DNA of 64,000 nucleotides from assembly GCA_003024785.1 (NCBI GenBank), contig PUQB01000083.1:446368-510367 (forward strand), in the 5' to 3' direction. Made by a program: the position numbers and the translations under genes. Below, piece by piece: positions 1 to 61,314 of this stretch (position 1 is its first letter; each line of letters starts with the position of its first letter). The notes under the pieces are model-generated. The model was not told where the DNA came from. It was given only the letters and a program-made list of their open reading frames with translations, and did not search any database. The DNA is from Selaginella tamariscina. Taxonomy: Eukaryota > Streptophyta > Lycopodiopsida > Selaginellales > Selaginellaceae.

Positions 1-1183
1 GGTCAGCAAATATTTGCATGTGACAAATGATGATATGCTTGTCGAATGGGTGAATCAATCGGAAGATCTGGGCAAGAATCTATTGCACGCCAACGCCAAA
101 AGGAGAACATTGCGATGACGCCTTCTCTTATGGCAGTCCTTCAGCAGCGGAGAACCGAGTTGAACCTTATAAAGGAGGATGCTACGAATCACGACAAGCC
201 CTACAGATGTTTGTTGTTGGATTCGGAGACTTTATGGGGTACCATCACTGCTTGTAGGAAACCGTTTCAATTGTTCGTGATGGATCGGCGGGTGTCAAAA
301 AATCCTTCGACAGACAGGACACTAGAGGATTTGGTGGAGAAACTTAGTCGTGCAAGTATGTACAAAGAAGGTATTTATTATTGAATTCATACTTGCACTC
401 TTGACTGATATCTACGTTTTCAGGTATTTATTTCTTGATTCTTGCTCATGTCACCGATACCTTTGCCTTCTCCTTTGCCAAGAGGAATAAACATCGTTGG
501 ACAGGATTTTATATGAATGATGCTGATCCGAAGTGCATTGATTCGGTTGTTCACTTGGTTGTTAGGAATGCGCCAAACAGTTTCAAACTTCCAAATGACT
601 GGCCAGGCATCTGTTTGCACTCCAACGGCCCTGAACCTCCATCCGATACACCGATAGTGAGAGTGACGTATTCGGCAATGTACGTTATCCAAACATCACA
701 AGTCAAGCGGCACGGAGCATCGTCAACTTGATCAGGGGTCCTCACAGTGATGCGTGGGTTTTTGACTACTGCACTCCGTCTTGAAGGAGTGTTACCTTCG
801 GATACATGTGTATTTGCCGTTGAAAAGGATAAGACCATGGTTGAGGACCTGAACAAGTGGATAGATAGGTTCTCAACTGACTACCCCAACGAATCCATAA
901 AGGAGTATTTGAGAAAGTTCCCTCCGATAAGTGCGATAGCTCTGAAGACGAATCTGGTTCAATGTCGGAGTCTGAGGACGAACTTCAATCAGATATTAGA
1001 CCGGAAGTTATCTCGAGGAGTACAGAACATTCGCACACTCCATTACCCATGGAAACATCAATAGAAGATGCAGAAGATCTTGAACCATCTCACAAGCGGC
1101 TTAGACCTTCTTCGCCTCACTCAGAAGGTAATAGCGAAGAAGAATTGTTAATGAGTTTTAGAGTGACGAATAGTTGTAAATGA
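1..1183 (+). pseudogene. GTE cargo gene 1, 3' part: methyltransferase-like domain and acidic tail
   Basis: This is the C-terminal half of the large ParB/methyltransferase-like protein that is more complete in GTE-B (7306-10432, minus). Readable blocks are 'KPYRCLLLDSETLWG' (about 200-240), 'NDADPKCID' (about 515), 'DAWVFDYCT' (about 750) and 'VFAVEKDKTMVEDLNKW' (about 810-860). The last two resemble motif I (SAM-binding loop) and the acidic motif II of SAM-dependent methyltransferases, although the glycine loop is damaged. The tail at 962-1183 is acidic and serine-rich (ESEDE repeats) with a basic patch 'HKRLRPS' that could be a nuclear signal, and ends at TGA 1181-1183. An intron with GT-AG ends is likely at about 355-423. 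At least two frame breaks (near 90 and 765) make it a pseudogene. The domain assignment is inference. Confidence 0.45.
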
Positions 1184-1268
1184 GTGTAACATAAGGCATT
1201 TTTGTATATTTCGTTTATATTTGTACAGAAAATAAATTCTCAAGGATTAATGAAGCTTTTAGTTCAAA

Positions 1269-2351
1269 CATGGGTCACACATTAACAAGGTAAATAATAT
1301 ACCTTGATAATTTTAAGGTCAGCTAATTATCATTTTGCAGATGTAATGAAACAATTGAGAACATGGATTTTCAGCATTGGCATGAGGTAAGAGAGGGGTT
1401 TGGCGACAATTTCTTGTGCCACATGTCAGAATGACAGAGTTCATGCAGGAAATGGATAATAATGCAGCTCAAAACATCGTTACCATGGGGGCCACTTCAG
1501 TTTTTTCATCATCATTTTTATTGGCTTCAGTTCCGAAATCAATTTCTTCAGCGCATGCAATATCTGAATCTTGTAAGGATGATGTACAATTAAATGATGA
1601 AGGGATAGGCAACGAGATAGTGGCAACGGATAAATGTGAAAGGGAGCAAACAAGTGATTTGCAAAGTATTCAAGAGGCAACGCTATCCATGTTACTCATG
1701 GCCATATTGTGTTGTTGGATGTCAATGGTGTTCTGCTTCATCGACAAAGGCCCGAGGATAGAAAAAAGAAATCAAACAAGGAGATTTCATTCCTTGTCAT
1801 GGTAAATTTCGATATGATATTATTTTTCGTCCAGGGTTGGATCGTCTCTTTCAAAAGCTTAAGGAGATGGGTGCGCTTGTGGGGATTTGGTCATGCATGC
1901 AGATTCATAACTTAACACCGCTGTTGAATTTGCTTAAGAAACATTGTAGTGTTGCAGAAGAGGTGATTCGTAAAGATTGGATTTTTGACCAGCGAATGTG
2001 TTATAAACCTCTCGAATTTCACAATATAAGAAAGGAAAGCAAGCCATACTTCTTCAAGAATGAAAGAATAATTGGGACTCATGGGGAGATCAGTCGCTTA
2101 AGGATAATGAAGAATGCACATATCTTAGTAGTAGACGACTCTCCTCAGAAGGCTATGCTCAACCAAAACATTGCTTGTATTCATCCAATCACTTTCGATC
2201 CATATTCTGATATGATATCATGGATGAGCTAGTGAACTACTTGGATACGTGCCTCAGAAAGAAGAATCTCGAAAATTTTTGTGAGCAGTATCCACCGTAT
2301 CATACATTTCCTGAAGCTTTTCTTTCTCGTGATTTGAATTTTATAAAATGA
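1269..2351 (+). pseudogene. GTE cargo gene 2: FCP1/NIF-like HAD phosphatase
   Basis: The C-terminal region is a recognisable FCP1-homology (HAD-superfamily) phosphatase domain. Motif I reads 'LLDVNGVLLHR' (about 1710), the DxNG form common in plant NIF-type proteins. 'RPGLDRLFQKLKEMG' and 'VGIWSCM' follow (1835-1900), then 'WIFDQRMCYKP' (about 1980), and the late acidic motif 'ILVVDDSPQKAMLNQ' (2120-2165) with the usual 'FDPYSD' after it. FCP1-type enzymes dephosphorylate Ser/Thr residues, classically the RNA polymerase II CTD; the substrate here is unknown. The start at 1269 and two small introns (1290-1341 and about 1387-1429) are suggested by GT-AG signals also present in GTE-B. One-base frameshifts near 1700, 1810 and 2210 break it. 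It lies directly downstream of cargo gene 1 on the same strand. Confidence 0.6.
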
Positions 2352-2853
2352 AGGATAGCAACCGGGCGCTTTATAATATTATTCTTAAGGAACGTCTTTT
2401 TAGATGAGCCTTTATGCAGACCTTCTTATTACATCTTATGTATTAACAAGGATGGCAACTCCCAATTGCATTCGTGAGAGTGTTAGGTGGTGGCAACAAC
2501 ATCAAGATATTGACCAAAATGATTTGATTAATCCGGAGAGTGATGATTTAGACAAAATGAGGAAGATTTCTGTATGATAGGAAGAAAGTATTTATAAATA
2601 TTAACATGTTGATAAGAAAATGATTTCATTTGTAATTATGTTTGATAGTATTTCTTCATTATTGTAAACTATTTTTAGAATAATATGAATATTCTAAGAT
2701 ATTTTAGGAATATTCCTTACTAAGTAAGGTTATTGAAGGATTAATTAATTAATTAATATTTAAGGCTTAATTACATATTAATTAAATGATTAATTAATAA
2801 TTAAAACTTAAGTATTAATTAGTAATTTATTTTATATTCCCATTTTCACGTAT
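2352..2853. other. AT-rich subterminal region of GTE-A
   Basis: No gene is seen. The stretch contains AGAATATTC-type motifs and TTAATTAA runs between the end of the phosphatase gene and the terminal repeat. It matches 5673-6187 of GTE-B in inverse orientation. A short ORF at 2404-2577 (57 codons) is open here but broken in GTE-B, so I do not call it a gene. Confidence 0.5.
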
Positions 2854-2879
2854 CATGCCCACTTTAGTTACAACGTGCA
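2854..2879 (-). repeat. GTE-A terminal inverted repeat
   Basis: Read on the minus strand it starts TGCACG and continues GTTGTAACTAAAGTGGGC. It matches the GTE-B left end (5647-5672) almost perfectly, and the transposase-side ends at 19078-19103 and 54346-54371 with about three or four differences. The 4 bp just outside are TTAA. Confidence 0.75.
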
Positions 2880-4310: not shown

Positions 4311-5646
4311 TAGTGTCAAGACATGGTTTTAATATGGGTTTGTGTAAGTATGGTTATACTTTTATGGTTTAAGAAATGGTTTTGTAAATAGTTTTGCAAT
4401 GTGCATAGTTTTCATGATATTTCAAAATGTGGTTTTTAAATGCTTTTTTTATAAAATAGTTTAATAATGATTGTAACATAGTTTTTGGCATAATTTTTTT
4501 TAATAAAAAAAGTAAATTTAATAATTAATGATTTTAAGAAATGTTTTGAAGACATGGTTTCAAAACATGGTTTTTTAATTAAATAAAAACATTCATTATG
4601 CAATATAATGATATGATTTTAACATGTTTTTGGCATGATTTTATAAAAAAAGTAATTTTTAATAATTAATGATTTTAAGAATGTTTTGAAGACATGGTTT
4701 TTTTCATTAAAGAAAAACTTTCATTATGCAATATCATTATAAGCCTTGGATTTAATTTAGATCATCATAATAAACAATTTACTTACATGGTTTTTAAAAC
4801 CATATATATATTTTTTTTAGACTTAGTGAAATTTATGAAATATAGTGTTATAACTCTTAAATTCAATCTTGGTCATCCATAATAAATTGTTTTCTTATAT
4901 GGTTTAATAAACTATATATATGGTTTTTATGGACTTAAATGAAATTTATATTAAAAACCCTAGAATCAATCTCAATCGTCCATATAAATGATTTTCTTAC
5001 ATGGTTACCCTAGATTTAATTTGGTCCATATAATAGTAAAAGCTCTAAACCTAGATTCACTCTAGGTTGTTCTTTTTTTTAATAGTAAAATATGCAAGGG
5101 CAAACAAAAACAATCAATTATGAAGGAAGGCACTCGAGGAGCAGCATAGTGGCAATGGTAACAACAATCACAATATAAAGGTAAGGTGCCCTATCAAATT
5201 CATCCTTTTTTTATAACTTTTTGTTTTTAGTAAGTGTGTTATATTCACTTAAAATTGTGCTTAACTATTTTAAAAAAGAAAACATTGATACATATGTAAT
5301 TCAAATTCATTTTACTTATCTCTTTTCTCTCTCTATATATAAATACATCTTCTCTTTCTCTCTCCCTCCTCCTCCCCCGCTCTACATATATATATATTGA
5401 ACATAGATTACCATGGGAGCGTTTAAACAATACAGTATATATTGGTTGTAATAAAGTTGTCATAATGACACATTATTTTAAAGGCAAGTACTATATACAT
5501 ATACATATTTGTGTGTGTGTGTTGTATGTTCTTAATATTTTTCATTTTTGTAGATAATTAAAAAGAATGTGGAACTTCAAAGCTCAATATATGAACCTTT
5601 TTTATCATGTAAGCTCTTGCAAGTTAAATCTAACTTAACTAGTATA
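4311..5646. repeat. AT-rich degenerate tandem repeats between Gyp1b and GTE-B
   Basis: No gene is seen. Two local direct repeats are visible. One is a ~147-bp unit at about 4485 and 4632 (shared block GATTTTAAGAAATGTTTTGA-like). The other is a ~111-bp unit at about 4749, 4860 and 4971 (shared block 'CATAATAAA..TTTTCTTA..ATGGTTT'). A CT-rich and TA-rich microsatellite lies at 5315-5395. The origin is unknown. Confidence 0.45.
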
Positions 5647-5672
5647 TACACGTTGTAACTAAAGTGGGCATG
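5647..5672 (+). repeat. GTE-B left terminal inverted repeat (cargo end)
   Basis: It reads TACACG then TTGTAACTAAAGTGGGCATG, the inverse of 19078-19103. The four bases before it (5643-5646) are TATA, and the four bases after the right end (19104-19107) are also TATA, so a 4-bp target duplication is possible. Both flanks are AT-rich, which makes a chance match easy. Confidence 0.7.
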
Positions 5673-6187
5673 ATATGTGAAAATGGGAATATAAATAAAT
5701 TACTAATTAATACTTAAGTTTTAATTATTAATTAATTATTTAATAATAATATGTAATTAAGCTTTAATAATTAATTAATTAATAAATTAATCCTTCAATA
5801 ACCTTACTTAGTAAGGAATTCCTAAAATATCTTAGAATATTCATATTATACTCTTTCTAAAAATAATTTACAATAATTAAAAAATACTATCAAACATAAT
5901 TACAAATGAAATCATTTCCTTACCAACATGTTAATTTTTTATAAATACTTTCTTCCTAACCATACAAAAAATCTTCTCATTTTGTCTAAATCATCACTCT
6001 TCGGATTAATCAAATCATTTTGGTTAATATTTGATGTTGTTGCCACCACCTAACATTCTCACGAATGCAATTGGGAATTGCCATCCTTGTTAATACATAA
6101 GATGTGATAAGACCAGATTTGCATAAAGGCTCATCTAAAAAATGACGTTCCTTAAGAAATAATTGTAAAGTGCCCGGTTGCTATCCT
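5673..6187. other. AT-rich subterminal region of GTE-B, cargo side
   Basis: No gene is seen. It is the inverse counterpart of 2352-2853, made of TTAATTAA-rich sequence and AGAATATTC motifs. Confidence 0.5.
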
Positions 6188-7221
6188 TCATTTATATAAA
6201 ACTCAAAATCACGAGAAAGAAAAACTTTAGGAAATGTTTAATACAGTGGATACTGCTCACAGAAGTTTTTGAGATTCTTCTTTCTAAGCACATATCCAAG
6301 TAGTTTACTAGTTCATCCATGGTATCGGTATCAGAATATGGGGAGAAAGTGAATTGATGAATACAAGCAATGTTTTGATTGAGCATAGCCTTCTGAGGAG
6401 AGTCGTCTATTATCCTAAGTGACTGATCTCCCATGAAGCCCAATTAATCTTTCATTCTTGAAGAAGTATGACTTGCTTTCCTTTCTTATATTGTGAAATT
6501 TGAGAGGTTTATAACATACTCGTTGATCAAAAATCCAATTTTTACGAATCACTTTTTTTACAACACTACAATATTTTTAAGCAATTCAGTAGCGATGTCA
6601 AGTTGTGAATCTGCAGTATGACCAAATCCCCACAAGAGCCCCATCTCCTTAAGCTTTTAAAAGAGACAGTTCAACCTTGGATAAAAATAATCATATCGAA
6701 TTTACCATGACAAGGAATAAATCTCCTTATTTGATTTCTTTTTTCCTATTCTCGGGCCTTTGTCGATGAAGCAAAACACCATTGAAATATGGCTATGGAT
6801 AAATGGGGTAGCGTTGCCTCTTGAATACTTTACAACTCACTTGTTTGGTCCCTTTCACATTTATCTGTTGACAATATATCGTTGCCTATCCTTTATCATT
6901 TAATTGTACATCATCTTACAAGATTCAGATATTGCAGGCGTTGAAGAAAGTGATTTCAAAACTGAAGCCAATAGAAATGGTGATGAAAAAACTGAAGTGG
7001 TCCCCATGGTAACGATGTTTGAGCTGCACTATTATCCTTTTCCTGCATGAACTCTGTCATTCTGACATGTGGCACAAGAAATTTTCGCCAAACCCCTCTC
7101 TTACCTCATGGCAAATGCTAAAATCCATGTTCTCAACTGTTTCATTACATCTGCAAAATGATAGTTAGCTGACCTTATAATTATTAAGGTATATTATTTA
7201 CCTTGTTAATGTGTGACCCAT
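6188..7221 (-). pseudogene. FCP1/NIF-like HAD phosphatase, GTE-B copy
   Basis: This is the second copy of the gene at 1269-2351. The C-terminal block is clear on the minus strand: 'RIIDDSPQKAMLNQNIACIH' at about 6350-6415 carries the late acidic motif, followed by 'TMDELVNYLDMCL' (about 6280-6325). The start (ATG at 7219-7221), the first GT-AG intron and the stop (TGA at 6188-6190) match copy A. The DVNG motif I region near 6770 is disrupted here but intact in copy A. Several frame breaks make it non-functional. The gene lies just downstream of, and co-directional with, the ParB/methyltransferase-like gene, with about 85 bp between them, so shared transcription is possible. Confidence 0.55.
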
Positions 7222-7305
7222 GTTTGAACTAAAAGCTTCATTAATCCTTAAGAATTATATTTCTGTACAAATATAAATGAATATACAATAAGCCTTATGT
7301 TACAC

Positions 7306-10300
7306 TCATTTACAACTATTCGTCACTCTAAGAACTCATTAACATTCTTCTTCGCTATTACCTTCTGAGTGAGGCGAAGAAGGTCTAGGCCGCTTGTGAG
7401 ATGGTTCATGATATTCAATATCTTCTATTAATGTTTCCATGGGTAAATGGAGTGTGTGAATGTTCTGTACTCCTCGAGATGACTTCTGGTCTAATATCTG
7501 ATTGAAGTTCGTTCTCAGACTTCGACATTGAACTAAATTTGTCTTCAGAGTTATCGCACTTCTCGGGAGGGAACTTCCTAAATACTCCTATATGGGTTTG
7601 TTGGGGTAGTCAGTTGAAACCTCTCTATCACTTGTTCAGGTCCTCAACCATGGTTTTATCCTTTTCAACAGCAACACACTGTTCCGAAGGTAACACTCTT
7701 TCAAGATGGACCCTAGTGCAGTAGTCAAAAACCCATGCATCACTGTGAGGACCCCTGATCAAGTTGACGATGCTTCGTGCAGCCTGACTTGTAATGTTTG
7801 GATAACGTACATTGCCGAATAGTCCCTCTTAGCTATCGGTGTATCAGATGGAGGTTCAGGCCCGTTGGAGTGCAAACAGATGCCTGGCCAATCATTTGGA
7901 AGTTTGAAATTGTTTGGCACATTCCTAACAACCAAGTGAACAACCATATCAATGCACTTGGGATCAACATCATTCATATTAAAATCCTGTCTAACGATGT
8001 CTATATCTTCTTTGGCAAAGACGAAGGCAAAAGTATCGGTGTATGAGCAAAAATAAAGAAATAAAAATACCTGAAAATGTAAGGTATCAGTTAAGAGTGC
8101 AAGCATGAATTCAATAAATATTCTCTTACATGCTTGCACGACTAAGTTTCTCCACCAAATCCTCTAGTGCCCTATCTGGCAAAGGATTTTTTAACACCCG
8201 CCGATCCATCATAAACAATTAAAACGGTTTCCTGCAAGCAGTGATGTTACCCTCATAAAGTCTCTGAATCTGACAACAAACATCTGTAGGGCTTGTTGTG
8301 ATTCGTAGCATCCTCTTTTATAAGGTTCAACTCGGTTCTCCGTTTGCTAAAGATTGCCATAAGAGAATGCGTCATCGCAATGTTCTCCTTTTTGGCGTTG
8401 GCATGCAATAGATTTTTGCCCCGATCTTCCGATTGGTTCACCCATTGACAAGCATATCATCGTCAGTCACATGTAAATATTTGCTGACCTCTTTATATGT
8501 TGAAGTCGAGGTCCAACCCAGTTTGTGACAGTGTATTCCCAATCACTCCTTGAAGCCTGATCGTCTTCAGCTCCATTGCCTGACATGAAAAGGAGAGGTG
8601 GGGCTGTTGTTGTTAATCTGTAGTTTGCCATTAATTACCAAATCAGTTAAGACATCCATCTCCTCCATCGTTGTTCCATTTAAAGGCTTCAACTATGTGA
8701 ACTTGAAATCGTTATTTACATCCTTTGTAATTGAATAGACTTAGCCTTTGTTGTCTTTGGGTTCTTTGCAGACTTTTCTGAGGGCTCCCCTTCATTTGTT
8801 TGCTTCTTTTTCAGTGTTTCTTTTACAAATGATTCCATAATCCCTACCCATTTGGTAAAGATCTTGTCCTCAGGGCAAGAAATCAACATCATTAGAAGGA
8901 TGTTTCCTTCCCGCCTACCTAGGCAAAATCAACTGCTACAATTTCTTCAGCTCCCTGCAAAAAAAAAAAGAGACAAATTAATATACTGGCGAGATAAATC
9001 TCGCCAAACAATTTACTTACCCAGTAGTCCACACATTGTTCTCTCCTGCAGTAGCTCTTTGTGGTTGCCCAAGATTTTCCCACATGGATCGCGTGTTTTG
9101 AACTTCTTCTATATTTTGTTGTTTGTAGTGGTTGTGTCAGCAGCGTCCCATTCTGTCGATAGCTTATGGTACTGCTCGATTGTGAGATTTGGCTTAGCTA
9201 AAAATGCTGATCTTTTTGTCAGTTTCTCATGGGTATTGTCAAAAGTTTTGTTGCCATTGTTCCTTTATTGTGTTCATCGAGAAGTCGTTGGGTTGCCGTT
9301 ATCGTGTGTTGGTCATTAATAATGTAATACTTGATTGATTTTTTATTCTCCTTCTGAATCTTCGTGATTGTTCTGGTGTTGTCACCCACACTATCTCAGT
9401 GCCTTTCTTTCTTTCAAGTATGGGCACAAAACAGCATTATGTGGAACGGTGTAAGAATTATCATCATTCATCTTCTCCATGAGCTCAGCTACATGTTTTT
9501 GGTTGAAGGTATGTAATTGAAGTTTGGGTTGACGCTGCAATACTTAACCCTACACTCGTAAATTCTATTATCCAACATCATTTCCTTGTGGCTTATTATA
9601 GCATTGATGCCACAGGTGCAGCTGACAAAACAACAAATGATTTTCTTCTGTGATCAGAATCAACATGTGTGAGCCCTGACTGCAGCTGTTCTAATGTTCT
9701 CGGCACACCTTCCAGCTCTTGAAGATTCCTAAATAAATTGAACGTGATCTGTAGAGAACCTAGGACCGAGCCACCTTCTCAATCTCCCTAATGATGTCAC
9801 TGTGTTCTTCTCCAATAAGAAAATACGATTGCTCCACTTGTGGATTTCAGTATTGTGAAGTAATATCTGCTAAGAATACACCTATTCGATGAGTATGGAG
9901 ATCTTCGAAGTAAACATCTAATTGGATTCCCTCCATAGATGGGCTTTCATTTAGTTGAAGAAGAACTCCACGCGTCGACATCATTAGTGAAAACGTGAAC
10001 GTCAATTATCCACAAGTCGACAAAACCACTCGAGATTCTTGTTGTAATTGGTGACCTTTAGATCCGAGAATATGGACATTTGGAACAAGGCATACGTGTC
10101 GAGCATCGTCCAATCTGGGTTCACAACATGCTCTCGGGTGCTTGATTAGTAAATCTAGTCTCCATTGTTTTGCTTGTCCACGCGATGTGATAGAGGTTAG
10201 TTTGATATCAACCACCATGGTTGCTCCAATGCACTTCCCATTTATTTTGAAATATGGCCAAGTTGATTCCAAAATCCCCTTGCCCATCTCATCTCTCTCC

Positions 10301-10432
10301 TCTCATCTTCAATGTCACCTCAATTCCACATCTGAATATAAAAATGATTAGTTCTTTCAAGCACATATCCGAGTATAATGATTTTATATAAATTTCTTAC
10401 CTAGAATTTGACGACGACTCCATATTAATGAT
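7306..10432 (-). pseudogene. GTE cargo gene 1: ParB-like plus methyltransferase-like protein
   Basis: This is the fullest copy of a protein of roughly 1,000 residues. It starts 'MESSSNS' (ATG 10430-10432), though an AG acceptor just upstream leaves room for an earlier exon. A GT-AG intron (10332-10400) follows. The N-terminal domain ('ESTWPYFKINGKCIG', 'HPRACCEPRLDDARHVCLVP') is unrecognised. At 9190-9580 lies a ParB-N-like segment: 'VKYCSVNPNFNY' and then 'YYIINDQHTITATQRLL', comparable to the NPN...DGQHR signature of the ParB/Srx fold. A linker follows. The C-terminal part (7600-8060) carries 'NMNDVDPKCIDMVVHLVVRN', 'DAWVFDYCT' and 'AVEKDKTMVEDLNKW', arranged as in methyltransferases whose catalytic motif precedes the SAM loop. 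The acidic tail ends at TGA 7306-7308. ParB-N fused to DNA methylase is known in bacteria and phages. No intact DPPY motif is seen, and many frameshifts are present. Confidence 0.5.
10332..10400 (-). other. Conserved spliceosomal intron in cargo gene 1
   Basis: The 69-bp intron has donor GTAAGAA and acceptor TATTCAG. GTE-C has the equivalent intron at 62689-62756, with the same donor, the same TTTTTRTATTCAG acceptor and the same exon junction (ATGTGGAATTGAGG). Its conservation supports a eukaryote-adapted gene. Confidence 0.6.
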
Positions 10433-10594
10433 TAAATCTTCTGTTTGATCAAACTGTCTTTCTGCAACAATATACACTATAAATACAATTCAAAGAAAAA
10501 CACACCCACACTTGTATAAACTTGAAATATAAAATTAATACATTGATAAATTCACATATACCCTTCTTTGTCTAGAGAGAAGTGGGACGGGATT
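10433..10594. other. Upstream region of cargo gene 1, GTE-B
   Basis: About 160 bp separate the gene start from the hairpin. It contains a TTGTTGCAG acceptor-like site (about 10461-10470, minus strand), also present in GTE-C, which suggests an unannotated first exon further upstream. I see no certain TATA box. Confidence 0.3.
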
Positions 10595-10682
10595 AACTGT
10601 CCGAAGCTTATCTTTGTGATAGTGCAAAAAGACTGATAACGTTTGGTTTAGAACCACCACAAATGTGAGTTTTTGGACAGTT
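10595..10682. repeat. Conserved hairpin with 24-bp arms, GTE-B
   Basis: The arms at 10595-10618 (AACTGTCCGAAGCTTATCTT and on) and 10658-10682 are imperfect inverses around a ~40-bp loop. GTE-C has the same structure at 62406-62490 with better-preserved arms. It sits between cargo gene 1 and palindrome array 1, so a regulatory or structural role is possible; it could also be a small MITE. Confidence 0.5.
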
Positions 10683-10847
10683 TATATGGTTTATTTGGCT
10701 TTACTCAAAATATTTAATAAGATGATAGAAGTAAATAAAATGAATCTTAATCTTATGTAGTGGACTTTAATCTTATGAATTAAATATTAATCTCATAATG
10801 TGGACTTTAATTATTTATATATACTAATACGCATATACATTCACATA

Positions 10848-11905
10848 GAAGGGGTGGCGAGATTAATCTCGCCACCCCTTTTATGCCTCCTGAAATAGTG
10901 AGCGGGATTAATTCGCCACCCTTTGCAGTCCCCTGAAAGGGTGTACGAGATTAATCTTGCCACCCTTCTCTGTCTTAAAGAGAACTAGGTGGGATTAATT
11001 TGGCCCACCCATTCAGGAGACCCAAAAGGGTGGCGGAATTATCTTGCCCACCATGGAAGGGATGATGGGAATTAATCTCCGCCACCCTTCGTAGTAGTCC
11101 CTGAAAGGGTGTGCAAGATTAATCTCGCCACCCTTCTTCTCGTCTCAGAGAGAACTGGGCGGGATTGATTTGGCCCACCTATTTCAGAGGACCGAGAAGG
11201 GTGGCAGGATTAATCTTGCCCATCATGGAAGGGATGGCAGGATTAAATCTTGCGCACCCTTCTCAGTCTCCTGAAAGGGTGTGCGGGATTAATCCCGCCA
11301 CCCTTCTTGGTCTCAGAGAGAATTGGGCGGGATTGATTGGCCCACCCATTCAGGGAGAAAGAACCAAAAGGGTGGTGGGATTAATCTCGCCCCATGGAAG
11401 GGATGGCGGAATTAATCTCGCCACCCTTCTCAGTCCCTTAAAATGGTGTGCGGTAGTAATTCCGCCACCCTTCTTTGTCTCATACAGAAGACTTATAAAT
11501 TAAATATTATTATTTAAGTTATAATTTAATCCATGTTAAGTGTATTGGTCGGGATTGATTTGGCTCACCAATTCAGGAGACAAAAAGGGTGGCGGGATTA
11601 ATCCCGCCACCCCTTCCATGCCTGGTCGGCGGGATTAATCCGCCCATGACACTCTCATTTGGATAATGGCGATTGACGGGATTAATCTCGCCCCACACTC
11701 ATTGAGACATAAAGTGTGGCGGGATTAATCCCGCCACCCTTCCATGCCAGGTGAACAGGATTAATCCTCCCACCACCTCCATGCCTCCTCGGACGGTCGG
11801 CAGGATTAATCTCGCCCATCAGGCATGGAAGGGTTGGCGAGATTAATCTTGCCGCCCTTCACGCAGGTCTTTGGTTAGCCTCATGGGCAGCAGGATTAAT
11901 CCCGT
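10848..11905. repeat. Palindrome array 1, GTE-B (about 24 units)
   Basis: Roughly two dozen copies of a palindrome with consensus GGCGGGATTAATCCCGCC lie about 40-60 bp apart. The first unit (about 10850-10882) extends to a perfect inverted repeat of about 32 bp with arms 'AAGGGGTGGCGAGATT'. Many units keep symmetry through matched changes, such as GCGAGATTAATCTCGC, while others have decayed on one side. Spacers share AGACAGAGAAGGG-type text, which shows that the array grew by duplication. Small ORFs rich in 'GLIPPP' are by-products of the repeat. Confidence 0.85.
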
Positions 11906-12180
11906 GCACATGCACGCACACACACACACATATATATATATGTATGTATGTATGTATGTATATATAGGAGTGTGCGTGTGTATGCCAGAGATAGATAAAT
12001 CAATAAGATTATACAAATACACACATATATATATGTATATATGTATAGGAGTGTGTGTGTGTGTGCGAGAGATAGATAAATAAATTTTATATATAGATAC
12101 ACACACATATAAATGTATATGTAAATACAGATAAATAAATAAATTTTCTATCACACACAGATATTATACACAGGAGTGTG
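11906..12180. repeat. CA/TA microsatellite block, GTE-B
   Basis: The block alternates (CA)n, (TA)n and (TG)n runs with GAGAGATAGATAAAT motifs, and matches 61130-61440 of GTE-C in inverse. ORFs on both strands here are low-complexity shadows. Confidence 0.8.
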
Positions 12181-12681
12181 CGTGTGAAAGAGAGAGATTT
12201 CACCTATGTGAATGCGCCTTTAAACCCTACTGCACCGCTGCACCTTTTTACACCACCATGCTTTCTAAGAAAGAGATTTATTGATCTATGGCATTGCCGT
12301 TCTCACATTCCACCACCACCGCGTCTTACTACTCCGCCGCCTTTCTTCTTGAAACCCTAAGAATATACCTGAACCCTAAAAGGAATAAAATATATATTAA
12401 CCCTAATCGAATATTCCTTCTAATAATATACCTAAACCTTAAAAAGAATAAAATATATATTGACCCTAAATGAATATTCTTTCATTATATTATCATAATT
12501 TTAAATTTGTGTGCGTGTGTTGGTGTGTGGGTGTATCACATACACCCCAAAAATATAAATCATGCAGGGGTTTAACATGTGTCTATGAGAGTGTTAAATT
12601 TTCACGTGTAGCAATACATATATACACACATATAATATACACATAAACATATGTACATAGTACATAATATTGTCACGTCAA
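12181..12681. promoter_or_regulatory. Telo-box-like region, GTE-B
   Basis: Several plant telomere-type AACCCTAA or ACCCTAAA motifs lie at 12350-12480 next to a CACC/CCGCC-rich stretch (12250-12345). The inverse equivalent in GTE-C is at 60780-61130. In plants, telo-boxes occur in promoters of growth-related genes; whether this is a promoter for either divergent transcription unit is inference. No gene is seen. Confidence 0.35.
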
Positions 12682-12931
12682 TACATATTATGGATCATGC
12701 ATGGTGTGTATGTATGAAAGAAGAGACATACTACATATTATGGATCATGCATGGTGTGTATGTATGAGAGAAGAGAGACAATACATATTATGAATCATGC
12801 ATGGTGTGTATGTATGAGAGAAAAGAGACAGTACATATTATGGATCATGCATGGTGTGTATGTATGAGAGAAAAGAGACAGTACATATTATGGATCATGC
12901 ATGGTGTGTATGTATGAGAGAAGAGAGAGAT
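12682..12931. repeat. 50-bp minisatellite, five units, GTE-B
   Basis: A unit of exactly 50 bp repeats with anchor TGGATCATGCATGGTGTGTA starting at 12691, 12741, 12791 (one change), 12841 and 12891. GTE-C has only two units (about 60485-60590, inverse). Confidence 0.9.
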
Positions 12932-15069
12932 GTTAAAAAATTAATTTCATACACATTGCATATATTAGTATATATATATACATACACACGTGTATACGCA
13001 CAAACTATATACATATTATATATGTAAATCAATGTGTTACATACAGACTAGGTTATATGGATCATATATGCGTTGAACATGATGTTTTCGATAAAGAAGC
13101 AACATATCTCTCCAGTTTGGTTTAAGGTCTAAACCCAATGCAAGTATTTTATTATTAAATTTTAATATTTGTATAAAAAGTCTATTATTTGTATATAAAT
13201 ACACAAGAAAACACGCATAAAGAATTGTTGATAGTCAAGTACATAAACATAAAATCACAAATCATTCTACCGATTTATCAATTAATTTAAAAAACTTCAT
13301 TTTTAAAAATACAAATTATAATTTGCTCATATTTTAAAATTGTATGTATATATTTAAATTTTACCCAATTTTAACTTAAAATGACATAATGATATTAAAA
13401 CACATTTGAAAGCAATCATAGCACATAATATATATATTAGTAAAAATCTTTATACTAATATAAACTAAATTCATGCACATTTTTCTAATTATTTAATATA
13501 AATTTACTCTAAACATTAAACATGTGTAAGTCCTAGTGTAGAGTGTGTGTAACTATAAATGTTTGGTTTGAGATTTAAACTCTAAATCATAAATACAAAG
13601 CTAGATGCTTTATTTATATTGTGATCCACTCATCGGCTTGTGCATGTGTGTGCATATGTGTTTCTGTAAGTGTTTCTAATGCGTGTGTATATATAAATTT
13701 TTATTGTGTTTATAATTGTGCAAAAGAAACATTGAATTAAAGTGAAAATGATATTAATATACACACTATGAACATATTTTAAATTATACATAATAATATA
13801 TCATTTTTCTAATATATAGTTATATATAGTTTTAATAATATATATTAATTTAATATTGATAATAAGGTTTAACATTGTAATATTATTGAAATAATAAGAA
13901 ATTAATTGAGAAAATCCCATTAATATATACAAATGTAAAATAATTACTTAAATTAATTAACTAATTTAATTATGATAATCAGATTTCATATTGGAATATT
14001 CTTGGAATAATAAGAAAATAATAAAGAATATCCCATTAATATAAAGAAATATAATTAATTACTCAAATAATTAAGAAAATGATATTAATATACACACTAT
14101 GAACATTTTTAAATTATATAATAAATATTTTTATCTAATATATAGTCATATATAGTTTTAATAATATATATTAATTTAATATTTAATAAGGTTTAACATT
14201 GAAATATTCTTGAAATAATAAGAAATTAATTGAGAAAATCCCATTAATATATATAATGTAGAATAATTACTGAAATAATTAAGAATATATACTAATTTAA
14301 TTATGATAATCATGTTTAATATTAGAATATTCTTGGAATAATAAGAAAATAATAAAGAATATCCCATTAATATAAAGAAATGTAAATTAATTACTCGAGT
14401 AATTAAGAAAATAATATTAATAAACACACTATGAATATTTTTAAATGATACATAATAATATATCAATTTATTTATTGTATAAGTATATATATTTAATATA
14501 TACTTAATAATATATATTGGAATATTAAGAATGTAGAATAATTAGTAAAATTTCATAATATTAAACAGCTCGAATCACTTGAATCACTTGAATAACATTA
14601 CATGCAATTTTATAAAACTCATTAGAATTAGAGAATATATATGTCAGAGTGTCGGTTATTTGTGTTAACTCATCTTAAATTTTATTTTATTTTATTTTCA
14701 AAAATTTGAAATTCTGACATAAGTATTATCGGTCTGACATGTAAATTTAAAAATGCATTTAATTTCCTATTCAAATTTAATATGATTCTTTCTCTAGCAA
14801 GGGTTTCTTCATTTCTGTATTTCACTCTTCAAATCTTGATAATGATCATGTCAGGAGCAACATTAAATTGGGTGCTATTGTTTATAAGAAAGCACGGTGC
14901 CTTCAATGTCGTTTACAAGTAAATATTATAAACAAATTTAAAAATACTTATAAAGATTCACTCTCTTACATTCTTTCTTAAAATTAAAATTTATGGGTTT
15001 AGGAATGCATTAGGATTACATTATATTTAGTTAGGAATTTATCCCGTTTAAACATCCTTTTTACTTAAT
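12932..15069. repeat. AT-rich region with ~330-bp tandem repeat, GTE-B
   Basis: No gene is seen. A block starting AAAATGATATTAATATACAC recurs at about 13745, 14077 and, diverged, 14407, giving two full units and a partial one. The segment 14830-14935 (AAATTGGGTGCTATTGTTTA and on) is conserved in GTE-C at about 59160-59240, and the TGACATAAGTATTATCGG block at about 14715 is also shared. Confidence 0.7.
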
Positions 15070-15445
15070 ATTCTCGTGGTAGGATTAATCCAGCCATTTT
15101 TTTTTTTGCCTCTTAAAAGAGGTGGGGATTAATCCTGCCCACAACTCTTTGAAACATGGAAGCCGTGGCAGGATTAATCCGGGCAATGCTTCTCCGCCTT
15201 TTGGAAAGAGCGGCGGGATTAATCATGCCGACAACAGTCTGAAATAATGAAGAGTTAACAGAATTTATTAAAAAGAGTTATCGACGGGATTAATCCCACT
15301 GGCTCTTTCTCGTTGGAGGGAGTCAACAGCGAGATTAATCCTATTGACTCTTCCTCATCAGAGGGAGTCGTAGGCGGAATTAATCCCGCCCACCATTTTA
15401 TTAGGCGGGGAAGGGGTGGCGGGATTAATCCCGTCACCAATTGTA
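15070..15445. repeat. Palindrome array 2, GTE-B (about 8 units)
   Basis: This uses the same palindrome family as array 1, but with spacers of the type 'ACTCCCTC.GA.GAGGAAGAG'. The matching array in GTE-C (58099-59010) has about 20 units, so copy number has changed between copies. It lies about 130 bp upstream of the transposase reading frame, in a promoter-like position. Confidence 0.8.
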
Positions 15446-15577
15446 TTAATCAAGTATGAGATATTATCTCTATACATAATAATATATTATTACACATGCA
15501 TATATATTAAGCACCTTCGATTTAGGTTTTTTAGAAATATTGCATAAACAGATATTATAAATAACATAATTATTTAT

Positions 15578-18314
15578 GTGCAGGATAATATGTTTAATAC
15601 TAGAGATAAAGTATGTCTTCTTCAAAACAATGAGATAGTTGGCACTGGAACTGTGGAAGTTCGAGATGATAATGCATCATGTCACAATATTGCCCAAGGA
15701 TCTTGTGTGTATGTATGGGTGAACACCATTTGCAAGCATGTTGAGGTTCTGGGAATGGAATTTGAAGAGGGTTCTCCTGTATTGTGGAATATGGATGAAG
15801 TCAAGGCTGACATAGAATATGCAGAGTCACAAACAAATAGTAGTACAATTCACCAGATGATGGCTTGCCTGATGTGATGGATGAGGTAATTCTCTTTTTT
15901 ATGAGATCGAGGTTGGGAGAGGCATCATCACAGTTATAAATCCAATGGAAGCCGTATCAGAAAAGAAACTAGGGGCCTACTTCGTGGGTGTAGTTGTGAC
16001 AAAGGTTTCACCTAATGACACATTGCATCCTGGATCCCTCGTGAGGTGGCGAACATTTGAATTAAGACGGTGAGATGGTTCAACATATTCTGGGTTGGAT
16101 TTCAATAATAACAACCCCCCATATTTGAAGAGGTTCCTTGCATTGGTCCTATAATAATAAAAAAAAGGCGATTCATGGGTTGCAGATCTTCCCCTGCAAG
16201 TTTCGGCAAGAAGGTCAAGATGGATTCTACATTTTCAGCAAGTGTTACTAGCATTTCCACGATTGATTGTTGCAAGAAGAAGTGTTGTCAATGGCAAACC
16301 AGAATGAAATTATCCAATGTAGACATGTCTTTCGTATGCTCACTCAAAAGCAAAGGCATGAGTTTGTATATGCTACACTAATTGGGTATATTAATGGAAT
16401 GGCCTTGGACACAGGTTATTAAAGTACATCTATGGTATTTAATAAGGTAACCATCTGCTTCAAAGCTTGGTACACTATATATGGGATCCCAAAGACCACG
16501 TTCTACCGTTGAAGGGATGAGTGGCTAGATGGAGCGCGGACCTCAGTATATGGGAACACTCGCCTGGTCAAAACCTGCTCTCACATTATGGTAGCCATAG
16601 AGATACTCAAGGCTTTTGTGGAAGCAAATGCAGACAGGATGCCTCACAAATACCGAACCACAAATGCAAGGGTCAGGGAAAATCTCAAGGTTTTGCCTTC
16701 AATCTACACTCAATTGAAACTGTGTGAACATGTGAACAAGTGCCTCAGTTTGATAGGGTTTCAAGCAATCTCATTGGTACCTTCAACAACATATGGAATA
16801 CTCATTTTAAGGATGTGGAGATTGCAAAACACTTTAGTTTTTCCAAGTGTGATACTTGTACATCATTGAAGGCTACAGAGGCTTGTGCAAAAACCTTGAT
16901 GGAGATCACTGCCATTCAAAAGAAGATGGAGGCCCACATGATTGCACAACAAACTTGCCGATTTCAGTACTATGCACACTGCATGCTTTCTGTGTCATGC
17001 CCATCAAAATACATGTGCTTGATCCATGACAAGATGGATCATTCAAAGACCAGCATTCCAAGGCTCGTTGCAACACCAAAGTGCCTTGGAAATGTCATGA
17101 AACTTCTGATTTCATTGACATGTGTGTTAACACATAAACACGATTGTGAATCATATGGACACTTTTCACTTCCACATTAGTCTAGCAACTCCAATTTCAC
17201 TATTGGGTCGTTGGCCATGTGTTTCAAACCTTGAAGCCCACTCACAAACAAGTCCTATGAGTGATCTCAAAGTAAAGAAATAAAATCTTCAACCTTTACA
17301 TAAGGCTCTCATGAACACGTCTACACTTGAGGCTACTTAGGAATATGAGAGGTATTGTCAGCAGCCTACACAAGAAACAGATGGCCCTGTTAAGAGTTCC
17401 AATTCAGTGGAGGGATCTAACTCAAATAGTGTACATGTGTCCTCAACATCAAATAAGTTCCTTGTCATTTACTTTTACAGATGGATAATTGTGCGGATAA
17501 GCACAAAAATAGGTAAATCATTTTAATTAAGGGTTTCTCAAGCTCATACTTACTTTTATTTTCTAGATATATTTGATGTGTTCTTCAGCAAGGTCTCCAA
17601 CTCTACAAAAAGGACAAGTGCACTCACATATGATGGATTTTTTTGAAAATTGCATCTCCAAAAAAAGTTATGCTTGCTTGTGATTGAGGTGCCATACTTC
17701 AAAAAGTTTCTCAAGGAGTATATAAAAGAGGGGAGCGATTCTTTAGTTGGTCACCTTATGCCGCTACATTTTTTTTTTCTATAAGAGATGGTATACTTAT
17801 TATGCAATACAAGTTACAACCATCAGAGCAAGAGTGGTTACCGAAAGAGGGCTTAATGCTCTTCAAAAGTGGAGAGGATGGAAAGCCACTTCTCCCAGAA
17901 GGACAACCAAACCCGAGTGTCCAGCTCAAGGAACAAGAACTTATTGATGGCATCAAAAAATATGTGGCATGGGTTTAAAAATCGATGCCAAAGAATTTTA
18001 ATAAGGCAATTGGTTATTCAGAACTATATAAGCATGTGGTCGATTATTGGGAGACTATTGTTCAAGAGTTAGAAGGGCCTACTGTCACAAGTATAAAATT
18101 GCAACACCCTTTTTGGCCTAAAACAAGGTGGCGAGAGGAGATTGAAATGACATCACTGAGCACAGACGACATAGAAGCTAGTAGTGATGTGGAAGTGCAA
18201 ACCCCACACTTTGTTGGACAAAGGAACCAAAAACCTAAAGCATACTTTGATTGCTGCAAGGATCTTCAAAAAGTAATGATGGTCCTCATTACTCCAGATG
18301 TGTCATATAATTAG
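15578..18314 (+). pseudogene. DUF7869-like transposase candidate, GTE-B copy
   Basis: The N-terminal domain at 15590-15870 ('DKVCLLQNNEIVGTGTVEV') resembles the small domain found in plant transposon proteins. A zinc-binding-like 'FSKCDTCTSLKATEACAK' lies at 16835-16890, then 'MLSVSCPSKYMC' and 'HDKMDHSKTSIPRL' (about 17030-17060), 'MDNCADKHKN' (17482-17510), and a C-terminal block 'WLPKEGLMLFKSGEDGKPLL' (about 17840-17895) ending at TAG 18312-18314. By motif order the protein matches the DUF7869 family; D in KMDHS, D in QMDNC and the acidic residues of 'GHTHEDID' may form a DDE/D-type site. In this copy about 90 bp including 'GHTHED' are deleted after the intron at 17513-17566. Multiple stops interrupt the frame near 15880-16150 and 16500. 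The gene faces the nearest TIR. Confidence 0.55.
17513..17566 (+). other. Likely intron in the transposase candidate
   Basis: Donor GTAAATC and acceptor TTTTCTAG flank 54 bp that would otherwise introduce a stop. GTE-C has the same acceptor, but its donor GT has become AT. Confidence 0.45.
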
Positions 18315-19077
18315 CCTATTTAGATGGGTCAAATTATCAACACACCTAAAGTAATCACAAAAAATAATATGGTTAAGGTTGCATAGTTCAAACCACAAAA
18401 AAGGCGACATGAGAAGGAGAGAGAAAGATATAATGGATGCCTAAAGAAAACATGGTCTCCCAATCAAAAAGACCCAGCATATTTTATAAATGTTAAATCC
18501 ATTTGATATGGCTGGATGTCAAAAACGTTGATAAAATCATGATTAATAAAACTACAAGAAATGTATGTTTTTTGAAGCTTAAAGTAATTACAAAATTAAA
18601 AATATCGTATATTTAATATTTATAATTATAATAAACTCTTTAATAATAGTACCAAATTGTTTATCTAACTATATAAATTTATAAAAAGATATGGAAAATT
18701 GACTATATTATTATAGGATTTTGTATATTTATATATATTATTACTAGTACAAATTTTTAATTAATGTTATATTTAAATATTAATATTTTAATAACAACAT
18801 CAATATTTATATAATGCACCTCTTATGCTCTTCCTTAATTTTTATATTAGGCCCAGACAATCTTAAATATAATATATTATATAACTTAATACCTTCTACT
18901 TTTATAATGTTATTAATTTTTACCATGAATGCTATAATTTATTAAAGGGTTGATTACAAAATAGAATATTTTAAAGAATATTCTATTTTCAAATATATTC
19001 TAAAGAATATTCCTTTAATATTAAAAATGTTAATTAAATAACTAAAATTGCTAATTATTAAAAAATGGGACTATAAA
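18315..19077. other. AT-rich subterminal region, GTE-B transposase side
   Basis: No gene is seen. The sequence, rich in AGAATATTC and ATTAAT, matches 54372-55127 of GTE-C in inverse. Confidence 0.55.
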
Positions 19078-19103
19078 CATGCCCATTTTAGTTACAACAT
19101 GCA
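19078..19103 (-). repeat. GTE-B right terminal inverted repeat (transposase end)
   Basis: Read on the minus strand it starts TGCATG and continues TTGTAACTAAAATGGGCATG. It is nearly identical to the GTE-C end at 54346-54371 and the inverse of the left end. It is followed by TATA, then by Gyp1b sequence. Confidence 0.75.
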
Positions 19104-20964
19104 TATAATAGCATCAGTTACCACATTTTTTCATGCCTTATGTTTGATTTTAAGTTTAAATTGAGTTAATTTCTAAAACCATCTAGTGTATTTTGGCGAT
19201 AACTTTGATTGTGTTTTAAATTATCTTAGACTTACACTATTTGTTCAAACCACAGTCCCGACTTAAAAGATAATAGCGCCAATACTTTAAGAAAGCAAAA
19301 ATAACATACATTTCTTTTTTGTGAGAACTTGTGTTGCATCCAACTTCTTTGAGAAAAAGAACATCGAATGTCCTTCTTGCTACAATACACCACCAATTCT
19401 AAAGTTGGATGCATCGCACTACACCTTAAATGAATCTTCGAAAATCAGCATATGCAATATACGCTCAAAGGAGTTAGTCTCTTTGAGCTTAATAAATGCA
19501 TGCTGGCACTCTAGAGTCCATTGACACATAATATTTTTCGTGAGTTTTGTCAATAGTGTTGCTATTTTTGAGTAATCTTTTATAAATCTACAGTAATATC
19601 TTGTTTATACCAAAAAATAATTTAACCTCATGCACGTCTTTAAGATTACCACTCAATAATAACTTGAGCCTTCATCATACTCATTGCGGCATTTTCATCT
19701 AAAATTGAGTGTCTTAAGAAATTTATTTTAGTTTGACTAAATGCACATTTGCCATATAACTAGTTATCCCTCAATTTCTGAAAATTTAATACTTTTTCCA
19801 AATATTTTGCATGTTCCTCAGATGTTGAAATAAAGACAAACTCATTTGCATAGTCTCTAAACACATCATCCATCATTATGTAAAAAGTTGATGTATCATT
19901 ACATAATCCGAACAATATAACTAAAAATTCAAATGATCCATAATAGATTTGAAAACTAGTCTTTTCAATGTCATCATCTACTATCTAAATCTGATAGTAC
20001 TCATATCTCAAGTCTATTCTAGAGAAATACTTCGAATTTGATAACCTATCAAATAAGTCATCCATTAATAGAAAAGGATACTTATTTTTAATGATTATTA
20101 CATTCATTATTTGGTAATCCATACACATCCACATTGTATCATCTTTTTTCATTATAAACGAGCTTGATGTACCATACCATGATTGGCTAGGACGAATATG
20201 TCCTCAACTAATCAATTTTGCCAGTTGTTTCTTTAATTCATCAACTCTTGAGGAGTTAATCGATAAGGGGCCCTCACCAAAGAAAAAGAACTTAGAAAAA
20301 TCTCTATCATGTGATTCACACCTTGATGCAAAGGTAACTTAAGTGACAAGTCTTTTCGTAACATGTCCCTAAACATGTTTAAAACTTTCAAATAGGATCA
20401 AGAATAGGTTCTTAACCATTTTCTTATTTTAATTTCTTCACTATCTAAAACCATTGCAAGGAATACTTGTTTCTGATGTCTAACTGCCTTACGCAAATGT
20501 GTTAAGATAAGGAACATAAGATTCCAATCCTTATCAGTTAGTGTTTTCATATTAATTGTCGTTTTTCTAATATACCCCTTTGTTCATTGCAAGTGTGATT
20601 ATATTATTACATAATCCCTTCATCTCATATACATATTTATGAAACCATTACATACCCAACATGAAATCAAACCCCATCATATTCAAGACAACTAAGTTTA
20701 TCTTAGCCTTCCAACTTATAATTTAGACAATAACTGCCTTTGTTATATCATTAGCATTTTAAACCTTTGTCAAAATTGATTTTTATTTTATTCATATTTA
20801 TTATATCCAAATTTAATCAATGAGCTACATTAATTTATATGAAGTTGTATGTTGCTCCAATATCAATCATCATTCGAACTTGGTCCCCTCGTATATTTTT
20901 TATCAAATATAACAAATGGTTAGTTTTGTTTTGAATAGCAAACAAAACAGGTTGTGTTTAACAT
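19104..20964 (-). pseudogene. Gyp1b pol remnant: RNase H, reverse transcriptase, protease region
   Basis: This is a heavily decayed copy of the same pol region as 53041-54345 in Gyp1a, and it continues past the point where GTE-C interrupts Gyp1a. RNase H sequence lies at about 19150-19530, reverse transcriptase at about 19540-20280 and protease-like sequence at about 20590-20960. Where Gyp1a encodes the YIDD catalytic box, this copy has lost about 20 bp (near 19830-19850). No ORF longer than about 70 codons remains. It gives the undisturbed version of the GTE-C insertion site: 'CTAAACATGTTTAAAAC' at about 20370-20387. It is cut on the right by Gyp3b. Confidence 0.6.
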
Positions 20965-54345: not shown

Positions 54346-54371
54346 TGCATGTTATAACTAAAATGGGCATG
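54346..54371 (+). repeat. GTE-C terminal inverted repeat (transposase end)
   Basis: TGCATG then TTATAACTAAAATGGGCATG; one base differs from the GTE-B equivalent. Confidence 0.75.
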
Positions 54372-55127
54372 TTTATAGTTTCATTTCTTAATAATTAGCA
54401 ATTTTAGTTATTAATTAGCATTTTCTAATATTAAAGGAATATTCTTTAGAATATATGTTTGAATATAGAATATTCTTTAGAATATTCTATTTTATAATCG
54501 ACCCTTTAATAAATATAGCATTAATGAACCAAAAAATTAATAACATTATAAAAGTAGAAGGTATTAAATTATATAATATATATTATATTAAGATTGTATG
54601 GGCCTAATATAAAAATTAAGAAAGAGCATAAGAGGTACATTTATAAATATTATGTTTTATTAAAATATTAATATTTAAATATAACATTAATTAAAAATTT
54701 GTACTAGTAAAAAAAATATATAATTTACAAAATCCTATAATAATATAGTCAATCTTCCATATTTTTTTATAAATTTATATAGTTAAGTAAATAATTTGGT
54801 ACTATTATTAAAGAGTTTATTATAATTATGAATATTAAATATACGATATTTTATAATTTGTAATTGCTTTAAGCTTCAGAAAACATACATTCTCTTGCAG
54901 TTTTGTTCATCGTGACTTTATCAACGCTTCTTGACATTCACCCATATCGAATGATTTAACATTTATAGAACATACTGGGTCTTTTTGATTGGGAGACCAT
55001 GTTTTTTCTAGGCATCCATTATATCCTTTGCTCTCCTTCTCATGTCCCTTTTTTGTGGTTTGAACCATGCAACCTTAACCATGCTATTTTTTGTGATTAC
55101 TTCAGGTGTGTCGATAATTTGACCCAT
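54372..55127. other. AT-rich subterminal region, GTE-C
   Basis: No gene is seen; it is the inverse match of 18315-19077. Confidence 0.55.
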
Positions 55128-57960: not shown

Positions 57961-58098
57961 AGACAACACATAAATAATTGTGTTATTTATGATATCTATT
58001 TATGCTCTAAGAAATCTGAATTGCGGGTGCTTAATAATATGCATGTGCATTAATACATAATTATGTATAGGGATAATATCTCATGCTTGATTAATACT
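57961..58098. other. Presumed transposase 5' region, GTE-C
   Basis: This stretch corresponds to 15446-15589 in GTE-B. It contains TATTATGTATAG-like sequence but no certain TATA box. Confidence 0.3.
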
Positions 58099-59010
58099 AC
58101 TGGTGGCGGGATTAATCCCGCTCATGACTCCCTATGACGAGGAAGGGTTGGCGGGATTAATCCCGCCGCTAACTCCCTCCGACAGGAAAGAGCCGGCGGG
58201 ATTAATCCCGTCACCACTCTTTTCGATGGGAAAGAGCCGGCGGGATTAATCTCGCCGCCGACTCCCTTCGATGGGAAAGAGCCGGTGGGATTAATCCCAC
58301 CACCGACTCCCTCCGATGGGAAAGAGCCGATGGGATTAATCTCGTAGCCACTCTTTCCAGTGAGGAAGAGTTGGCAGGATTAATCTCGCCGCTGGCTCTT
58401 CCCTTTCAGAGAGAGAGGCGACGGGATTAATCCGTTGTCGACTCCCTTCGACGAGGAAGAGTCGACGGGATTAATCCCGCTGCTGGCTCTTCCTCGTCGA
58501 AGAGAAGCGACGGATTAATCCCTCGAAACTCCCTCTGACGAGGAAGAGGTGGCAGGATTAATCCCGCCGCAACACCCTCCGATGAGGAAGAGTCAATAGG
58601 ATTAATCCCGCCCACAACTCTCTCTGAAGCTATAATTTCAAAGAGATCTTAAGGGGGTGGCGGGATTAATCTCGCCAATGCTTTTCTACGTCCTAAACTG
58701 ATCGGCAGGATAAATCCTGCTCACAAATATTTAAAACAGGGAAGTAGCGAGATTAATCCCGCCACCCCTTCTATGCCTTTTAGAATGGTCAGTGGGATTA
58801 ATCCCGCCGACAATTCTTTCTAATAAATTTTGTTAACTCTTCATCAATTGAGAGAGTTATCAATGGGATTAATCTCGCCGCTCTTTTTCAAATGCGGAGA
58901 AGCATTGCCTAGATTAATCCTGCCACGGCTTTCAAAGAGCTAATGGCGGGATTAATCTCGCCACCTCTTTTAAGAGGCGAAAAAGAAATGGCCGGATTAA
59001 TCCCGCCTCC
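58099..59010. repeat. Palindrome array 2, GTE-C (about 20 units)
   Basis: The cleanest array in the window: units of about 42-45 bp made of the palindrome GGCGGGATTAATCCCGCC and a spacer such as 'GACTCCCTCCGATGGGAAAG'. Symmetry-preserving variants (GTGGGATTAATCCCAC, GCGAGATTAATC forms) are frequent. ORFs with repeated 'GLI.PP' are artefacts. Confidence 0.9.
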
Positions 59011-60484: not shown

Positions 60485-60590
60485 CTCTTCTCTCATACAT
60501 ACACACCATGCATGATCCATAATATGTAGTCTGTCTCTCTTCTCTCATACATACACACCATGCATGATTCATAATATGTACTAACGTGAC
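60485..60590. repeat. 50-bp minisatellite, two units, GTE-C
   Basis: The inverse of the GTE-B minisatellite (anchor CCATGCATGATYCATAATAT at 60506 and 60558), with two units about 52 bp apart. Confidence 0.8.

Positions 60591-61262: not shown

Positions 61263-61314
<52 letters not shown>

Follow-up and report, generated by a model that had tools for sequence, protein, structure and literature searches.

Introduction

CACTA (En/Spm) transposons are large multi-gene plant elements that carry arrays of short binding motifs and encode an accessory protein of the TnpA type. In the excerpts of the published accounts used here, elements of the Sola superfamily encode a DDD transposase, have 4-bp target site duplications (TSDs) and terminal inverted repeats (TIRs) of 11-1124 bp, exceed 15 kb in some cases, occur in Physcomitrella and count bacteria among their named hosts (PMC10741241). 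Similar excerpts describe three Sola2-type families from a slime mould whose TSD is AWWT (PMC3627910) and, for the fern Ceratopteris, tabulate 2,739 elements of this superfamily (PMC6890710). Here we analyse 64,000 nucleotides of Selaginella tamariscina (assembly GCA_003024785.1, contig PUQB01000083.1, positions 446,368 to 510,367 of the forward strand; this whole 64-kb stretch is called the window), which contain one complete copy (B) and two truncated copies (A and C) of an element. We consider it very likely that these copies represent a decayed family of large multi-gene TIR DNA transposons moved by their own DUF7869 protein.

Related copies bounded by terminal inverted repeats

Self-BLAST of the window matched positions 1-2893 to 8489-5633 (88.9%) and positions 54343-64000 to 19106-9083 (several blocks, the main ones at 73-90%); both segments run in the opposite orientation to copy B, in agreement with the alternating orientation proposed in an earlier note made from the letters of this DNA. 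The similarity among the copies ends at the TIRs. The element ends correspond to GCAYGTTGTAACTAAARTGGGCATG and read GCAYGTTG, with slight departures: the left end of B, ACACGTTG, starts with ACAC, and the end of C has one mismatch. A search for the 21-base TIR core with up to 3 mismatches gave four matches in the window, exact at 2854-2874, 5652-5672 and 19078-19098 and with 1 mismatch at 54351-54371. The core is thus present at all four visible element ends and absent elsewhere in the window, and no match was found in 100 dinucleotide shuffles. These four positions place B at 5648-19102, within 1 bp of the ends given in the earlier note, with TIRs of 25 bp where that note had about 26 bp. The copies and TIRs are as follows.

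5648..19102, + strand: copy B, 13,455 bp from TIR to TIR, the sole complete copy (from self-BLAST ends, TIR matches and end sequences)
1..2878, - strand: copy A, truncated by the left window edge, equivalent to about 5648-8489 of B (global alignment, 90.3% identity over 2,854 aligned columns)
54347..64000, - strand: copy C, truncated by the right window edge, equivalent to about 9083-19102 of B (global alignment, 88.9% identity over 8,557 aligned columns)
5648..5672, + strand: left TIR of B, 25 bp long and differing from the right TIR by 3 mismatches
19078..19102, - strand: right TIR of B, 25 bp, from the end sequence and the match to the TIR core

Both ends are visible for B only, A and C each showing one end within the window. 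Self-BLAST detected no match of at least 60 bp between A and C; since A covers 5633-8489 of B and C covers 9083-19106, these two copies have only the TIR in common. The earlier description of three copies of about 13.5 kb is therefore in part inferred, no internal stretch being visible in all three: B is complete and A and C are related to it. Likewise, the gene order said to be common to the three copies holds pairwise, between A and B and between B and C. Repeated copies bounded by TIRs are a feature of TIR (cut-and-paste) DNA transposons, and this feature is present here.

The DUF7869 protein as candidate transposase

Ten pieces of the element were compared with Pfam; one matched DUF7869, one matched NIF and, for the remaining eight, no hit went below E 0.029. 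Rfam gave 0 matches at the gathering threshold. The candidate transposase gene is present in two copies.

15590..18320, + strand: DUF7869 candidate transposase gene of B, interrupted by stop codons and frameshifts, start codon picked by eye
55131..57906, - strand: DUF7869 candidate transposase gene of C, broken; its piece 55783-56043 matches PF25273

The match of 55783-56043 to DUF7869 (PF25273) is strong (E 1.9e-20, 73.7 bits, curated cut-off 26), and a read-through of the C gene retrieved 50 proteins at E <= 0.001, every one of them carrying PF25273, the best-scoring at E 2.7e-125 with 41% identity over 88% of the query. The DUF7869-like gene reported in the earlier note is supported by this profile match. 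Identified sources of these homologs include the moss Physcomitrium patens and the liverwort Riccia sorocarpa, together with corals, bivalves, a sea anemone, a sea urchin and Chromera. Tree building on 52 rows placed the window copy with three proteins (support 100/100), a group that falls within a 34-row clade (also 100/100) to which Physcomitrium and Riccia proteins belong as well. The N-terminal stretch of the B gene resembles, as judged by eye only, that of protein P0004, for which PF26133 is among the precomputed domains.

When 37 of these 50 homologs were aligned, residues Q351, K360, L371, G388, H389, T390, H391, D393 and F398 proved invariant; residues conserved in at least 90% of the proteins include D192, D195, D353, N354 and D395. 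Three hydrophobic stretches each terminate in conserved aspartates, within the motifs HDKMD, LQLDN and GHTHEDID. Aspartate clusters follow hydrophobic stretches in RNase H-like transposases too, and the catalytic core of the DUF7869 protein is probably of the RNase H-like DDD type. DUF7869 is a widespread domain with no assigned function, and its location inside an element with defined ends now offers a handle on its role.

Palindrome arrays upstream of two divergent genes

The earlier note had described two arrays of one palindrome, and this proved correct for both B and C. The 18-bp palindrome GGCGGGATTAATCCCGCC, with a site defined by at most 5 mismatches, occurs at 63 sites in the window, all within B and C, compared with 0-1 sites in each of 5 mononucleotide shuffles. 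One site is located at 8988 and the other 62 form four arrays, in which 34 of the 58 spacings between neighbouring sites (B and C together) are 43-47 bp.

10856..11906: array 1 in B, with 20 palindrome sites; the first piece mapped for the second large gene lies about 0.7 kb downstream
15078..15435: array 2 in B, with 7 palindrome sites; the by-eye start of the candidate transposase gene lies about 0.15 kb downstream
58105..59007: array 2 in C, with 20 palindrome sites
61469..62290: array 1 in C, with 15 palindrome sites
11907..15077: AT-rich stretch separating the B arrays, with a GC content of 26.5% and 28.7% in the two 2-kb bins spanning its greater part

The AT-rich centre of B also contains tandem repeats at 12682-12928 (50 bp, 4.9 copies) and 13744-14502 (about 331 bp, 2.3 copies). 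The two large genes of B are divergent around this centre, each with a palindrome array upstream, and this position suggests a control of the two promoters. Such arrays before two divergent genes point to a possible self-regulating transposon, whose palindrome-binding protein could be tested directly. The possibility that the spacers between palindromes form second hairpins was rejected (p <= 0.05 for only 5 of the 44 spacers, median 0.26).

The second large gene and the phosphatase gene

Two further genes were mapped, the phosphatase gene in both A and B.

7309..10164, - strand: second large gene of B, broken, both ends approximate, no database match
6313..7105, - strand: FCP1/NIF-like phosphatase gene of B, broken, placed by alignment to copy A
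1386..2229, + strand: FCP1/NIF-like phosphatase gene of A; its piece 1762-2229 matches PF03031

Piece 1762-2229 matches the NIF family PF03031 in Pfam (E 1.7e-7, 31.5 bits, curated cut-off 21.8), and a read-through of the A gene improves this match (E 8.2e-11, 42.3 bits), in line with the FCP1-like phosphatase proposed earlier; PDB sequences gave chance-level matches only. The second large gene had been read as ParB/methyltransferase-like, from the motif SGQHT in a ParB-like context and from FDYC...VAVEKD, which resembles methyltransferase motif I. No ParB or methyltransferase match was found in Pfam, NCBIfam, PHROGs, PDB (for which just the C-terminal half served as query) or the protein database (one search of which ran to E 10), and the matches obtained were at chance level (Ipi1_N at E 0.017, below the cut-off; PHROGs at E 0.13 and 0.22; PDB at E 0.6). 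We therefore did not retain an identity as ParB or as N6-N4 DNA methyltransferase, which had come from by-eye motifs with no profile support; the gene is broken and may be a decayed member of one of these families.

Insertion sites, decay and neighbouring retroelements

ATAT borders copy B at either end, and the TIR of C is likewise preceded by these four bases.

5644..5647: candidate TSD ATAT, left of B, read from the sequence
19103..19106: candidate TSD ATAT, right of B, read from the sequence

The outer flanks of A (right, 2879-4227), B (right, 19111-20376) and C (left, 51106-54344) correspond to different positions in one family of Ty3-like retroelements; the three insertions could reflect either a nest of elements or a target preference. 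Within the element, differences at codon positions 1, 2 and 3 total 159, 137 and 145 (18 partly overlapping segments), together with stops and indels. There is overall no codon-position bias in these segments that would mark recent selection and, with differences so nearly equal and with the stops and indels, the copies appear to have decayed free of selection after insertion. Given a divergence of 10-11%, different flanks and this lack of codon-position bias, the copies are independent, dead and decayed insertions. C-to-T differences between B and C amount to 129/609 at CG (0.21), 116/635 at CHG (0.18) and 466/4,751 at CHH (0.10), and those between A and B to 32/264 (0.12), 34/270 (0.13) and 117/1,548 (0.08), respectively. 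Elevated C-to-T change at CG and CHG is the pattern left by plant DNA methylation and, together with the place of the window copy in the DUF7869 tree, it points to a land-plant host.

Between copies B and C, a Ty3-type long terminal repeat retroelement occupies 36439-50397, with a pair of direct repeats (36439-36963 and 49864-50397, 93.5%), interior matches to gag, protease, reverse transcriptase/RNase H and integrase, and an inner direct repeat of 213 bp at 42380 and 46986 (98%). Two inverted stretches of Ty3-type retroelements (20963-26783 versus 29595-35795) lie within 20963-35795, a region with matches to gag, reverse transcriptase, the integrase zinc-binding domain and a Tf2-type SH3 domain.

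DUF7869 loci in other genomes

A scan of genomes from bacteria and archaea, limited to stretches matching a pattern, gave 26 of these, three of which are DUF7869 loci (L001 to L003), on contigs of 4.3-6.4 kb; all three are taken as eukaryotic contamination. L001, a 4.3-kb contig filed under a cyanobacterial metagenome-assembled genome, is probably plant contamination and contains one gene, with an open frame of 963 codons. Upstream of this frame, a 27-base palindrome occurs at 111 and 486 (1 mismatch each) and at 31 (4 mismatches); it was read off the same contig that was later scanned. A loose scan (up to 13 of 27 mismatches) gave 19 sites compared with 4-24 in 20 shuffles, so that only the three strong sites count. 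L001 thus resembles the window element in having an open DUF7869 frame with its own repeated palindrome upstream, and differs from it in the palindrome sequence, in lacking the regular 45-bp spacing and in having a single gene.

At the end of contig L003, downstream of a DUF7869-like gene, an 89-bp repeat (4972-5162, 2.1 copies) includes two different palindromes, each present twice, with a spacing of 43-46 bp (about 45 bp). Since this repeat is 100% identical and located at the contig end, an assembly error is possible. No repeated palindrome of such kind was found in L002, whose contig ends in or near the gene. The repeated palindromes in two of these three fetched loci (L001 and L003) hint at a general habit of DUF7869 elements. 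Among viral contigs, none of 97 pattern-matching stretches encodes a relative of the DUF7869 alignment, and neither an exact TIR core nor a paired palindrome was found; plasmids gave no match for P0001.

A proposed mechanism and points against it

We propose that the DUF7869 protein would bind the 25-bp TIRs and excise the element by a DDD cut-and-paste reaction, then integrate it while duplicating a short AT-rich target, for which ATAT is the candidate. The palindromes would most likely be bound by a protein encoded by the element, either the transposase or the second large protein, which would repress or activate both divergent promoters and might also help to assemble the transposition complex by bringing the ends together. 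The FCP1/NIF-like protein could be an accessory protein or the product of a captured host gene. We regard as unlikely, yet worth stating, a broader scheme in which DUF7869 would define an unnamed superfamily present throughout eukaryotes, with lineage-specific repeated palindromes bound by an element protein that both co-regulates and transposes, and with a plant branch of 13-kb multi-gene elements carrying a host-type phosphatase.

Several observations weigh against a DUF7869-driven transposon of this kind. A profile of the 37 aligned proteins had no match better than E 0.067 among PDB sequences, no other transposase family was found in 8 DUF7869 homologs scanned against Pfam (E up to 10), and there is thus no profile link from DUF7869 to a proven transposase in these searches. 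The visible flank of copy A is ATTA, and a duplication is seen on both sides of one copy only, B, with an ambiguous boundary that allows a length of 2 to 4 bp; ATAT being self-complementary and AT-rich, a shift of the boundary would shorten it. Comparison with the related retroelement identified no empty site for B: the sequence to the left of this copy (4227-5633) bears no relation to the retroelement on the other side. No intact copy was seen within the window. Binding of the palindromes is suggested by their position and recurrence alone. As for palindromes in general, the middle of B has 10 compared with a control mean of 2.1 (maximum 6, 20 controls), and a control stretch of retroelement also exceeds its shuffles (8 versus 2.0, maximum 4). 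The counts are 6 versus 1.9 (maximum 4) for L003, 4 versus 2.25 (maximum 7) for L001 and 1 versus 2.35 for L002. Because of the excess in the retroelement control, palindrome number was rejected as evidence, and only the recurrence of one sequence counts.

Classification and alternative origins

Searches of the literature by domain name returned no mention of DUF7869, PF25273, IPR057191, DUF8039 or PF26133, and further literature searches listed no title or abstract start describing such an element. The element is apparently unnamed, and its broad class may already be known; there is a moderate chance that the transposase family itself is unnamed. By description only (DDD-like motifs and a candidate 4-bp AT-rich duplication), Sola is the best named candidate for the closest superfamily. 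That the element belongs to Sola, being Sola2-like, with only the family and its cargo new, is a serious possibility that falls somewhat short of probable. The size range, TIRs and TSD length given above for Sola, and its occurrence in a moss and a fern, would all accommodate the element, and the ATAT on both sides of B and before the TIR of C fits AWWT. On the other hand, the ATTA beside copy A departs from AWWT and, whereas the hosts of Sola in the excerpted account include bacteria, the bacterial and archaeal scan yielded only the three loci taken as contamination, and plasmids yielded none.

Alternatively, DUF7869 elements could form a separate superfamily of eukaryotic transposons that has no name, which we consider possible but rather doubtful. 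All 50 homologs carry PF25273, the 8 that were scanned show no match to any other transposase family, the domain name is absent from the literature searched, and the homologs extend to corals, bivalves, sea urchin, sea anemone and Chromera. However, these proteins may already sit in Repbase as Sola, Academ, Novosib, Dada or IS3EU, superfamilies that to our knowledge have no Pfam counterpart. If DUF7869 corresponds neither to Sola nor to another catalogued superfamily, then transposon catalogues lack an entire superfamily; if it does correspond to one, a Pfam domain gains a function.

Two other origins are far less probable. An origin as a DNA virus or Polinton-like element that integrated and then decayed would account for the large size, the several genes and the palindromes; it is very improbable, given the short TIRs, the DUF7869 gene and the absence of viral hallmarks among the ten pieces scanned against Pfam, which cover part of the element. 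The duplication of one locus, by assembly (an error envisaged in the earlier note) or by segmental duplication, would explain three similar segments in alternating orientation within 64 kb and is hardly credible, since they diverge by 10-11% with indels, lose similarity at the TIRs and are flanked by different positions of Ty3 retroelements.

Comparison with known transposons

A decayed family of TIR transposons moved by a DUF7869 protein, our preferred reading, can be compared with several described groups. Pfam holds a profile for KDZ (Kyakuja-Dileera-Zisupton) transposases, and membership of this group was rejected, as none of the 8 DUF7869 homologs matched it at E up to 10. Membership of CACTA (En/Spm) was ruled out by the TIR, which does not start with CACTA, and by the lack of a CACTA-type transposase profile (presumably Transposase_21) among the Pfam matches of the same 8 homologs. 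The arrays differ as well, being internal and upstream of genes in the Selaginella element and not subterminal.

The palindrome arrays and the FCP1-like gene are unmentioned in the excerpted Sola accounts. By description, Sola and the element are alike in their DDD-like motifs, in a 4-bp AT-rich duplication (a candidate here), in short TIRs and in an occasional very large size, and Sola occurs in moss and fern. At the protein level, the PF25273 proteins of Physcomitrium and Riccia belong to the same family and the same 34-row clade as the window copy, and the four that are named share 30-34% identity with it.

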